Source: Robiginitomaculum sp.
GTDB taxonomy: Bacteria > Pseudomonadota > Alphaproteobacteria > Caulobacterales > Maricaulaceae
Direction: 5' to 3'
Assembly: GCA_015485155.1 (NCBI GenBank)
Contig: WFUF01000015.1
Span: forward strand, 1-57,011
DNA length: 57,011 nucleotides
Part shown: positions 3,339 through 57,011 of the stretch, piece after piece
Layout: each line of letters starts with the position of its first letter
Numbering within the stretch: the stretch's first letter is position 1
Program-made: the position numbers and the translations under genes
The notes under the pieces: model-generated
Told to the model about the DNA's origin: nothing
Seen by the model: only the letters and a program-made list of their open reading frames with translations
Database searches by the model: none

Positions 3339-3966
3339 TTGCCCCCTGTGCCCCAGTATCGTTATTTGCGGGAACTGCATCACTAACCATTGCAGGAATT
3401 GAGACAATTACTTCCGGCAAGCCTTCCAGCGAGAAACTGATTTGCTTTGGCAGGGATTGTGGCGTTTCCCATTGTTCCTGCCAGTTATTATCTCCCATAA
3501 AGCTGAACTTTGGTCTTGCAACTCCGTCATATAAAACCAATGGCTGCTGTTCCTGGGTTAGTCCAAATTCATCAAGATTGAGCAATTGTTTGCGTAAAAA
3601 CAATATCTGCCAGTTCTGCTCTGATCCTTTTACAATCTGCAAGGATTGCTCATACAGGCCAGGTCTTGATGGATATGCAGTTTCAGCAATTACAAAGCTT
3701 ATTTGATCGTCGCTTCCGGTAAATAGTGCCTGTGGCCCTAAATCTGTTTCTATTTGTAATGGTTCTATTCTGATCAGCCTTTCATGCATAAACCGGAACA
3801 GGCTGTTGGTTTGTTCGCTTTCTTCTTGAAGTATGCGCAAATGCCCGGACCATTTTGATAATATGGTTATGCCCTGCACTAATACCACCAGCACCAGAGC
3901 GCTTATCGTCATTGCTATTAGTAGCTCCACAAGGGTAAGCCCGTTTTGTCCTGACCTGTTTATCAT
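3322..3966 (-). CDS. gspJ: Type II secretion minor pseudopilin GspJ
   Basis: A 214-residue pseudopilin with a short leader and the prepilin peptidase site NG/LTLVELLIAM, with Glu at +5, followed by the hydrophobic spine LIAMTISALVLVVLVQGI. The globular part has the GspJ-like stretch EQTNSLFRFMHERLIRIEP and a C-terminal small-residue tail. It forms the tip complex with GspI and GspK. It starts 4 nt inside the end of gspI and its own end overlaps gspK, in keeping with the compact operon. Confidence 0.88.
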   Translation of the reverse strand: MINRSGQNGLTLVELLIAMTISALVLVVLVQGITILSKWSGHLRILQEESEQTNSLFRFMHERLIRIEPLQIETDLGPQALFTGSDDQISFVIAETAYPSRPGLYEQSLQIVKGSEQNWQILFLRKQLLNLDEFGLTQEQQPLVLYDGVARPKFSFMGDNNWQEQWETPQSLPKQISFSLEGLPEVIVSIPAMVSDAVPANNDTGAQGANADAG

Positions 3967-4313
3967 GGGCTGCGGATGGTTTCAGTTACCAAAAGCACCT
4001 GCCTTCCCGACGACGCCGAAGCTGCAACCCTGATTCTGATTAACTCAGCTCCTGACCTGTTGCGGGCTATTGGCGAACTTGTCACTGTCCATGCGATGCC
4101 GTCAGTTATGCCACTATTGTTTTGTATGCTGGGGTCGGCTGTGATCAATATGTTATGTGCGACAATATTGGTTCTATTCAGTTCCTTGGCTGCCCCTTGC
4201 AGCTTTGTTGCTGCACCGATGCCTTGAAAAACCAGTGCCATGCCACTGGCAGCCAAAACCATTGAGACAATGGCTTCGAGTAAAGTAAATCCCCGCTTGT
4301 TATTGGTTTTCAA
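3963..4313 (-). CDS. gspI: Type II secretion minor pseudopilin GspI (TTG start)
   Basis: A 116-residue pseudopilin with leader MKTNNKRG and mature sequence FTLLEAIVSMVLAASGMALV, with Glu at +5. The conserved NRTNIVAHN segment sits where GspI usually has its ALLLAENL-type helix. The start codon is TTG at 4313, preceded by a very good ribosome site (GGAGG, 6 nt spacer), which decides the start. It overlaps gspH by 14 nt. GspI nucleates the pseudopilus tip with GspJ and GspK. Confidence 0.87.
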   Translation of the reverse strand: MKTNNKRGFTLLEAIVSMVLAASGMALVFQGIGAATKLQGAAKELNRTNIVAHNILITADPSIQNNSGITDGIAWTVTSSPIARNRSGAELIRIRVAASASSGRQVLLVTETIRSP

Positions 4314-5046
4314 GGCTAACCTCCGCAGTCGCCCACAGAACAGAAACTACATAAACAGCAGTATCAGATGAAATTTTTACTTCACCACCAGTTGAAGTTC
4401 CATCGGGGAAAAACCTAATTACAGCCAGATCCGCACCGGATTCAAACTCAGCAGTTTTAGCTTCTATTTCAATATCTTCGGCAAATTTGATTTTATCCTG
4501 GCCTCCCAGCCAGGCGGTTTTTGTTGATGTGTCAATGGTAACGGCCTGCGAAACACCGGTATAAATGGCCAAATTCCTACCCTTTTTGTACAAGGATACC
4601 ATTTGCATGGAATTGTTCTTTGCCTGCTTGTTGGCATTTACAGTAATCAACCGAGGCGCAATTATCGCTGTGGTCAGAGCGACAATTGCCAGAACCACTA
4701 ATAACTCAACCAAAGTGTAACCACTTAAATGAGTTTGAGCTCTAGGGCATTTACGGGTCAAAACGAACCAGAATTTGCTTTCTGATTTTTTATCTGCCGC
4801 ATTTTTTACCGCAAAACCCGTCCTCAAATAGCGAAGCGATAGGACAGACAGAGTCCTCAAGTAGCGAGGCGGTAGGACAGACAGAGTCCTCAAGTAGCGA
4901 AGCGATAGGACAGACAGAGTCCTCAAGTAGCGAAGCGATAGGACAGACAGAGTCCTCAAGTAGCGAAGCGGTAGGACATTAAAAAAGCTTCCCACTTTTG
5001 CTAAAAATGCTCTAGCTACCTGAAATGTGGTCTTGGTTTTGGCCAT
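4300..5046 (-). CDS. gspH: Type II secretion pseudopilin GspH with a repeat-derived leader
   Basis: The prepilin site is SG/YTLVELLVVLAIVALTTAI (Gly109/Tyr110, Glu at +5), followed by a small pseudopilin domain of normal size. What is odd is the leader. From ATG 5046 (AAGGTAGG upstream) it is about 109 residues long instead of the usual 6 to 20, and residues about 25-78 are five near-identical copies of an 11-residue unit (RYLRTLSVLSL). The DNA is the dispersed composite repeat also seen between other genes, here with an exact 33 bp period. No ATG lies in frame after the array. Alternatives are a weak TTG or GTG start after the repeats. The gene overlaps the end of gspG by 35 nt and gspI by 14 nt. 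Confidence 0.8.
   Translation of the reverse strand: MAKTKTTFQVARAFLAKVGSFFNVLPLRYLRTLSVLSLRYLRTLSVLSLRYLRTLSVLPPRYLRTLSVLSLRYLRTGFAVKNAADKKSESKFWFVLTRKCPRAQTHLSGYTLVELLVVLAIVALTTAIIAPRLITVNANKQAKNNSMQMVSLYKKGRNLAIYTGVSQAVTIDTSTKTAWLGGQDKIKFAEDIEIEAKTAEFESGADLAVIRFFPDGTSTGGEVKISSDTAVYVVSVLWATAEVSLENQ
4790..5015 (-). repeat. Composite palindrome plus minisatellite inside the gspH reading frame
   Basis: Read on the minus strand: a left palindrome arm starting at the gspG stop codon (TAGAGCATTTTT, then AGCAAAAGTGGGAAGC, 4988-5015), then five tandem units starting every 33 bp exactly (forward positions 4821, 4854, 4887, 4920, 4953), then a right arm (GGGTTTTGCGGT, AAAAAATGCGGCAGATAA, 4790-4820). 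The arms match the left and right halves of the uninterrupted copies at 26635-26690. The whole element has an open frame as the start of gspH. Confidence 0.92.
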
Positions 5047-5479
5047 CGCCACCTACCTTGTTATCTGCTCCAAGGCTCTTGATTGTAAACTGTCCACTGT
5101 TTGGTGATTCGTAAATATAGGGATTTTTCCACGGATCATTAGGTAATCTGCCCTGTCTAAGATATGGCCCGTTCCAGCCTTCAATGCCCGCAGGCGGGCT
5201 TACCAGAGCGGATAAACCTTCGGCAGTGGTTGGGTAGCGCCCTGTATCAAGGTAAAAGCGTTCTACAACGGAGGATAGCATAACCACATCAGCCGCCGCT
5301 GCCTTGGATTTTGCACCGCCAAATATGCTGGAATAATTCATCGCAACTCCGGCAGTAATTACCGCAATAATTGCCATTACCACCAGCAATTCCATCAATG
5401 TGTACCCGGCCTGGGTATGGGCTAATGGTTCCGGAATGTCTGTTTCGTCAACAACAGGTGTTTTGGGTTTAGCTTTCAT
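5012..5479 (-). CDS. gspG: Type II secretion major pseudopilin GspG
   Basis: A 155-residue major pseudopilin. The prepilin site is AG/YTLMELLVVMAIIAVITAG (Gly24/Tyr25, Glu at +5). The leader of 24 residues is on the long side. The domain carries the GspG signature YPTTAEGLSALV, GWNGPYLRQGRLPNDPW and the calcium-loop region SLGADNKVGGDGQNQD. GspG polymerises into the pseudopilus that pushes folded substrates through the secretin. It starts just after the gspF stop (TGATATG). Its stop codon TAG is the first triplet of the composite repeat element. Confidence 0.95.
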   Translation of the reverse strand: MKAKPKTPVVDETDIPEPLAHTQAGYTLMELLVVMAIIAVITAGVAMNYSSIFGGAKSKAAAADVVMLSSVVERFYLDTGRYPTTAEGLSALVSPPAGIEGWNGPYLRQGRLPNDPWKNPYIYESPNSGQFTIKSLGADNKVGGDGQNQDHISGS

Positions 5480-5480
5480 A

Positions 5481-6674
5481 TCAGTACTCTATTTGATTTA
5501 TGCTGACCATTGCCATCATTATGGACAGTATTATAGCACCGATCACCAGACCAACAAAGCCAATCAATAAGGGTTCGGCAATTTTAACCAATTGCTTGGC
5601 ACCACGCTCCAATTGTTCTTCATACATCAATGCCAACCGGCTGGCCGCCGAGCCAATATCGCCAGTTTCTTCACCAACCCGCAAAATTTCACTGGCCAGA
5701 GATGGCAGCACTTGTGCCCGGTTTATATGCTCTGGTAAAGATCCGCCTCGGCGCACCTCCTGCAGGGCATTTTGCAATTGTTGTTGTGCAAATAAATCAG
5801 TCAGGCTGGCGCTGGCCAGTCGAAAAGCCGGGGCGGCCGACAGACCGTTTTGCAATAAAACCGCCAATACCCGGCAAAATCGGGCAGCAAGCATGGTTTT
5901 GGCAACGGGGGCGATTATAGGAATTTTATGCACGGTACGATACAGGCGCAAACGTGAGCTTTCCCGGCGTAGCCAAAGACCCAGCAAAAACCCGATGGCA
6001 ATGAAAACTATCAGGATCGGTGGCCCCCAAAGCCCAAGTCCATTTGATAGATTAAATACAAATTGCGTAAATGCCGGAGGCGTTGCCTGCATATCGATGA
6101 ATATTTTTTCAAAAACGGGTACAATAAACACCAAAATACCTATCACAGCCAATGCGGAAAAGATTAGTAATATCAACGGGTACAACAAGGAGCCGCGAAT
6201 ATCGGACTCAAATTTTTGCCGTTTTTCATGCCAGTCAGCCAGATCAGCCAGAGCTTCGGCCAATGAGCTTGAAGCTTCTCCGGACTCGGCAATCTGGGGA
6301 AATGGAGGAGGAAAAAAGTCGGGCATATTGGAAAATGCCTGACTAAGGGAATTACCGGCCCGCACCTGTGCCAACAGGTCTTTTGCCACCTGTCCTGTCA
6401 TGGATGCATCTGAAAATTTTTCCAGCGAAACCAAGGCTCTTTCCACTGATAAACCAGCGCTGATCAAAGCGGATAATTCGCGAATAAGACGGGTTGCGGC
6501 AATGCTGGCACCGCGAATTTTCTTTCTTGTGGGTTCTTTGCCGGGGCTAATGGCTACGGGTGTAAAGCCAAGGGCGCGGGTTTGGCGAGCGGCCAAGACT
6601 TCACTTTCGGCGGTTATGAAAATTTCTTCTACTGCTCCATCAGCACGCACAGCCTGTACTTTCCAGTGTTTCAT
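5481..6674 (-). CDS. gspF: Type II secretion inner-membrane platform protein GspF
   Basis: A 397-residue protein with the two GspF/PilC cytoplasmic helical domains (about residues 60-180 and 265-385) and three membrane helices, including LLYPLILLIFSALAVIGILVFIVPVFEKIF and the C-terminal LLIGFVGLVIGAIILSIMMAMVSINQI. Family motifs seen are RELSALISAGLSVERAL, FPQIAESGEASSSL and EILRVGEETGDI. The ATG overlaps the gspE stop (TGATG). A TTG one codon earlier is less likely. GspF bridges the ATPase GspE and the growing pseudopilus. Confidence 0.95.
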   Translation of the reverse strand: MKHWKVQAVRADGAVEEIFITAESEVLAARQTRALGFTPVAISPGKEPTRKKIRGASIAATRLIRELSALISAGLSVERALVSLEKFSDASMTGQVAKDLLAQVRAGNSLSQAFSNMPDFFPPPFPQIAESGEASSSLAEALADLADWHEKRQKFESDIRGSLLYPLILLIFSALAVIGILVFIVPVFEKIFIDMQATPPAFTQFVFNLSNGLGLWGPPILIVFIAIGFLLGLWLRRESSRLRLYRTVHKIPIIAPVAKTMLAARFCRVLAVLLQNGLSAAPAFRLASASLTDLFAQQQLQNALQEVRRGGSLPEHINRAQVLPSLASEILRVGEETGDIGSAASRLALMYEEQLERGAKQLVKIAEPLLIGFVGLVIGAIILSIMMAMVSINQIEY

Positions 6675-56843: not shown

Positions 56844-57011
56844 AGCATTTTCAGCAAAAGTGGGAAGGTTTTTGCTTGCGCTACCGCCTAGCGGCTACTT
56901 GAGGACTCTTTATCTGTCCTACCGCCTAGCGGCTACTTGAGGACTCTTTATCTGTCCTACCGCCTAGCGGCTACTTGAGGACTCTTTATCTGTCCTACCG
57001 CCTAGCGGCTA
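56841..57011 (+). repeat. Left palindrome arm plus 38-bp minisatellite array, running off the window
   Basis: The podJ stop TAG is the first triplet of the left arm TAGAGCATTTTC, AGCAAAAGTGGGAAGG. From about 56880 the array has an exact 38-bp period with core CCGCCTAGCGG, TACTTGAGGAC and TCTTTATCTGTCCT. AGGAC pairs with GTCCT between units. No right arm is reached before the window ends. Confidence 0.92.

Follow-up and report, generated by a model that had tools for sequence, protein, structure and literature searches.

The gspH gene of a marine-type Robiginitomaculum bacterium carries a real in-frame insertion in its leader, a variant of palindromic insertions like the Rickettsia palindromic elements (RPE), which is explained by the stop-codon preference of a dispersed repeat element together with the overlap of gspG and gspH. 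From the comparisons described below it appears fairly probable that this element inserted at the gspG stop codon, and that translation of gspH continues from the original ATG with a 109-residue leader, which would then be cleaved off. The source genome (G000) comprises 2.39 Mb in 27 contigs, and the window is the whole analysed stretch of 57,011 nucleotides, positions 1 to 57011 of contig C15. The anatomy of the locus was read directly from the DNA, and its features are as follows.

5012..5479, minus strand: gspG, the major pseudopilin, with its stop TAG at 5014-5012 (ORF; Pfam T2SSG 1.3e-30 and N_methyl)
5050..5059, minus strand: Shine-Dalgarno-like sequence of gspH, AAGGTAGGTG (duplex -10.7 kcal/mol)
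5044..5046, minus strand: gspH ATG inside gspG, common to the genus relatives (junctions of 15 relatives)
4300..5046, minus strand: gspH ORF, 248 aa, including the 109-aa leader (translation, N_methyl, and relatives in 15 other genus genomes)
4742..5013, minus strand: inserted dispersed element, its left end adjoining the gspG stop and its right end approximate (273 nt extra from start to glycine relative to G014 and G009; left end as in other copies)
4978..5013, minus strand: left arm, AGAGCATTTTTAGCAAAAGTGGGAA... (alike, allowing up to 3 edits, across the 36 sites compared)
4820..4977, minus strand: five 26-nt cores at 33-bp spacing (TRF and core search)
4781..4819, minus strand: right arm, GGGTTTTGCGGT...ATGCGGCAGATAAA (similar arm in several other copies)
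4759..4761, minus strand: alternative in-frame TTG start, giving a 14-aa leader (duplex -2.7 kcal/mol)
4720..4722, minus strand: glycine preceding the predicted prepilin peptidase cut, SG/YTLVE (translation; N_methyl match at residues 108-129)

The gspH frame and its leader

A single open gspH frame runs on the minus strand from the ATG at 5046 to 4300 and crosses all five repeat cores. The preliminary description had this frame open within the repeat, which is wrong: the ATG at 5046 sits in the 3' end of gspG, and the overlap from the gspH start to the gspG stop is about 35 nt. Its estimate of a leader of about 109 residues, well above the usual length, agrees with the 109 codons counted from this ATG to the cleavage glycine inclusive, against 13-22 residues in the genus relatives. 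It was also right that no in-frame ATG occurs 3' of the array before the cleavage motif, though a TTG at 4761 is in frame there and is the sole standard gspH start codon between array and motif. Further in-frame start candidates, a GTG at 4995 and several TTG codons, lie in the left arm and array, and a GTG at 5052, like the ATG at 5046, falls within the gspG 3' end.

The prepilin cleavage and N-methylation motif is present in the gspH product (Pfam N_methyl, 22.5 bits against a cut-off of 21.2). The GspH domain PF12019 was matched at 18.5 bits (E 0.003), or 19.9 bits with the leader removed, against a cut-off of 21. The leader contains 21 K+R and 2 D+E residues without a TM-like stretch, and its maximum 19-residue hydropathy is 1.03, compared with 2.72 in the N-terminal segment that follows it; such charge and hydropathy are consistent with a cytoplasmic location. 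In the mature domain, 82 of 152 differences from G014 and 84 of 152 from G009 fall at third codon positions. As judged from these alignments a third-position bias is retained, a pairwise constraint that is no proof of activity after the insertion. An amphipathic helix of 11-mers was rejected as the function of the leader, with 844 of 2000 permutations reaching the hydrophobic moment of the repeat unit, and a single-sequence structure model (mean pLDDT 48.1) was too weak for use.

The gene lies after gspG in a gsp operon with the minus-strand order E-F-G-H-(I)-J-K-L-M. The products of E, F, G, K and M scored above their Pfam cut-offs and J slightly under its own; gspL was recognised via PilN, and gspI is named from position and N_methyl alone. 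The GspG C-terminus, ...DHISGS, has an identical ending in G014. The gspI start is apparently a TTG at 4313 with a strong Shine-Dalgarno sequence, while those of gspG and gspJ are weak.

The gspG/gspH junction in genus relatives

A gspH gene was detected in 16 of 18 genus genomes, G000 included, and the gspG/gspH junction was readable in 15 of the 17 relatives, G006 and G010 having yielded no gspG/gspH. The alignment of gspH and its upstream region across related genomes that had been proposed as a check was carried out at genus level. In all 15 relatives gspH begins within gspG, the leader measures 13-22 residues (nine lengths obtained by script, six read from the junction sequences) and the insertion is missing, leaving G000 as the only one of the 16 genus junctions to have it. 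The gspH ATG lies at or near the homologous codon in 14 of the 15, mostly in a MAKT-type start; the exception, G016, has a GTG at the homologous start codon and an ATG a few codons further on.

The distance from start to glycine is 324 nt here versus 51 nt in G014 and G009, whose GspG proteins are 68% and 64% identical, respectively, to that of this genome. The added 273 nt (91 codons) are a multiple of 3 and contain no stop, and the gspH frame is therefore preserved across the insertion. By this comparison the insertion probably lengthens the gspH leader from about 18 to 109 aa; given its absence from G014 and G009, it probably postdates the split from them. The shared start also corrects the earlier view that an intergenic repeat had been recruited as the start region. 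Owing to the overlap of about 35 nt between the gspH start and the gspG stop, which makes the element coding, the insertion fell inside a leader that was already there, after the start codon and ahead of the cleavage site.

The closest relative is G006 (GspE 96%), an assembly 77% complete in which the relevant contig ends in gspF. Searches of it for gspG, gspH and gspJ gave no match, and a DNA query of window positions 3400-5700 matched in its repeat part alone. Among 26 GspG loci in named genomes, the best two belonged to the MAGs Robiginitomaculum sp. NORP327 (66%) and NORP30 (59%).

A dispersed element at stop codons

The element at gspH is about 270 bp long with the array nested within it, and the repeat unit consists of a 26-nt core and a linker. 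The left end reads AGAGCATTTTTAGCAAAAGTGGGAA, and the right arm of the dispersed element runs GGGTTTTGCGGT...AATGC. The array at 4820-4977 of the minus strand has a TRF period of 33 with 95% matches. Core spacings of 33, 33, 33 and 33 bear out the five in-frame units of exactly 33 bp (11 codons) described at the outset, as four full units and a fifth core that continues into the right arm; the translation is VLPLRYLRTLS, VLSLRYLRTLS, VLSLRYLRTLS, VLPPRYLRTLS and VLSLRYLRTGF.

At least 73 BLAST matches of the repeat stretch were found in G000 (40 of 112 candidates scored), and 19 of the 61 genomes searched, G000 counted, match it. A pattern search for the core with at most 2 mismatches returned 102 matches in G000 and 106 in G006, 1 to 12 in each of 15 of the other 16 genus genomes, and zero in G010. 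The core is thus dense in two genomes and sparse in the other 16, perhaps through a recent expansion. The copies studied are a subset, 36 fetched stretches and the window, and the pattern search shows further sites. Copy totals vary with the pattern (36 left ends, 35 primary starts, 42 arrays), and a narrower pattern gave other spacings.

These copies show a preference for stop codons. At 30 of the 36 left ends, the gspH copy included, an ORF of 100 aa or more on the same strand ends between -60 and +15 of the element start. Such an end lies within 15 nt at 28 of 36, compared with 2.1% of random positions, and within 3 nt at 23 of 36, compared with 0.46%; the control comprised 20,000 positions in the same stretches. 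No opposite-strand ORF ended within 15 nt of any of the 36 left ends. Some stretches start close to the left end, and the missing upstream ORF of one of them, L079, is consequently not a true miss. The left ends, at window positions 5013, 26634, 56843 and 50053 and in L078-L112, mostly adjoin same-strand stop codons, in one orientation. The placement of the gspG stop TAG conforms to this stop-adjoining pattern of the family.

No real gene other than gspH was seen to be entered by a copy at the 36 places examined. L110 was considered as a second coding insertion and rejected, since the 119-aa frame that spans it runs antisense across the 3' end of a 197-aa ORF. Array copies of the family also occur at both window ends (8-194 and 56881-57011), and the assembly may therefore break at the repeats. 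Mobilisation of a REP/RAYT kind was rejected: the RAYT domain Y1_Tnp (PF01797) has 0 matches in G000 and none in G006, and 6 of the 18 genus genomes have one. The RNA structure of the element did not stand out, with a stability of -3.9 kcal/mol (z -0.73) for the core and z -0.84 for the whole element, and no Rfam family matched region 4200-5600 at gathering score.

Significance of the open frame and the 33-bp period

The 79 spacings in the 34 other multi-unit arrays were 33 (1), 34 (9), 35 (27), 36 (7), 37 (8), 38 (24) and 39 bp (3). The lengths of 34, 35, 38 and 39 bp given earlier for copies elsewhere do occur, but that list was incomplete, as 33, 36 and 37 bp are found too. Only 11 of the 79 spacings are multiples of 3, and 2 of the 34 arrays hold such spacings exclusively.

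In the gspH phase, three of the other 34 multi-unit arrays can be read through without a stop, and seven can when any phase is accepted. Counting single cores as well, 8 of 41 are open in the gspH phase, or 4 of 41 when 40 nt are added to the array; an open stretch of 250 nt follows 2 of the 34 other primary element starts in the gspH phase and 3 of 34 in any phase. A copy that stays open in the gspH phase is uncommon, with the looser counts less favourable. Taking one third for frame restoration, a copy both open and frame-restoring would arise by chance at roughly 2-6%.

Open frames do arise accidentally in this family. In L081, positions 1193-1753 hold a copy flanked by convergent ORFs, with spacings of 36, 36, 36 and 34, and the 186-aa frame that it opens, very probably no gene, is an annotation trap; L079 (spacings 36 and 36) is probably an accidental frame of the same kind. 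With an intergenic array opening a spurious frame in this way, the 33-bp period counts for little by itself. Moreover, the four 33-bp spacings may have been fixed by one tandem-duplication event rather than by four. The earlier interpretation of the period as a mark of selection is weakened on both counts.

Start codon of gspH

Duplex energies were calculated against the 16S tail. The Shine-Dalgarno duplex is -10.7 kcal/mol at the ATG at 5046 versus -2.7 at the TTG at 4761. In the relatives it ranges from -4.8 to -11.1 kcal/mol (eight examined, start found and value measured in seven), with -4.8 at the ATG of both G014 and G009. This contrast favours the ATG over the TTG but is not decisive. 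Retention of the ATG is no proof of its use, because it lies in gspG codons.

It might instead be proposed that the element severed gspH from its old start, that the TTG at 4761 is now used with a 14-residue leader (MTRKCPRAQTHLSG), and that the open array is accidental. This reading is unlikely, though a sizeable minority chance should be granted to it. Its leader would be within the 13-22 residues of the relatives, accidental open arrays exist in the family (the 186-aa frame of L081), and the operon offers a precedent in the apparent TTG start of gspI, with a Shine-Dalgarno duplex of -10.7 kcal/mol. The weak site at the TTG excludes nothing, since weak sites are common in the operon (gspG ATG -2.4, gspJ -0.9; gspF TTG -4.9). 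Against it, a duplex of -2.7 is combined there with a TTG codon, the old start remains intact and in frame with its stronger site, and open, frame-restoring copies are uncommon. A further proposal, that gspH is under loss and that the insertion cuts or abolishes GspH function in a frame that has yet to decay, is improbable. The insertion does lie in the start region and PF12019 is under its cut-off, but gspH keeps an intact reading frame and N_methyl motif, and the scanned neighbours resemble a gsp operon. With the shared start codon, its strong Shine-Dalgarno sequence and a frame both open and restored, the repeat is probably read as the gspH leader.

Discussion

The preferred account is that a dispersed palindromic element with a tandem array, oriented like the upstream gene, would have inserted at the gspG stop codon. 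Translation of gspH from the old ATG would continue because the added 273 nt contain no stop. The leader would be kept in the cytoplasm by its charge and then removed by the prepilin peptidase, with mature GspH unchanged; as a general mechanism, class III prepilin leaders are described as being removed in the cytoplasm by this peptidase (PMC10191384). The anatomy, the start codon common to the relatives, the insertion, the open frame and the family's preference for stop codons are shown by the sequence comparisons, and from this arrangement we infer translation from the ATG at 5046, cleavage and near-neutrality of the insertion.

Rickettsia are alphaproteobacteria. RPE are dispersed palindromic elements inserted in frame in coding genes, the product likely being kept (PMC10969869, PMC3733652). 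By description, the gspH element is like RPE in being dispersed, palindromic, alphaproteobacterial and in frame in a coding gene. Unlike RPE, it contains a nested array, gspH is the only real gene entered among the 36 places examined here, and the added residues are in a leader expected to be cut off. GTAG/CGTC REP sequences, according to one account, are short palindromes mostly downstream of coding regions and sometimes inside ORFs; they often supply a TAG stop, their clusters code for 43-82 aa in Thauera and R. conorii, and those in N-terminal coding regions may in truth be extragenic through misannotation (PMC3733652). The gspH element resembles these, so far as they are described there, as a short palindromic repeat near coding ends with a TAG stop and an intragenic case. 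It differs in the lack of a RAYT (PF01797) match in G000, the 91 codons added and the 26-nt core with linker. Class III prepilin leaders vary in length and are removed on the cytoplasmic side by a cut that follows Gly or Ala, and the major pilins of Streptococcus sanguinis have very long ones (PMC10191384). The gspH leader is comparable as a variable-length leader before a predicted Gly cleavage site. Unlike those of S. sanguinis, it owes its length to a repeat insertion, belongs to a minor pseudopilin and has relatives of 13-22 residues. A literature search found no published title on the insertion described here; several results were off topic, which makes this weak evidence of absence.

A hypothetical rheostat, in which 33-bp units would be added or dropped without ever breaking the frame and would thereby alter the rate of GspH translation, insertion or processing, is very improbable. 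If true, a stop-codon-aimed repeat family would have given a secretion system a disposable leader of variable length while leaving the mature protein unaltered. For annotation, an element insertion can lie behind a long repetitive prepilin start region, and the start codons of relatives decide. The locus also illustrates a route by which repeat DNA can turn coding: gene overlap brings an element directed to stop codons into coding sequence, where a leader that is cleaved off may allow the inserted repeat to persist.
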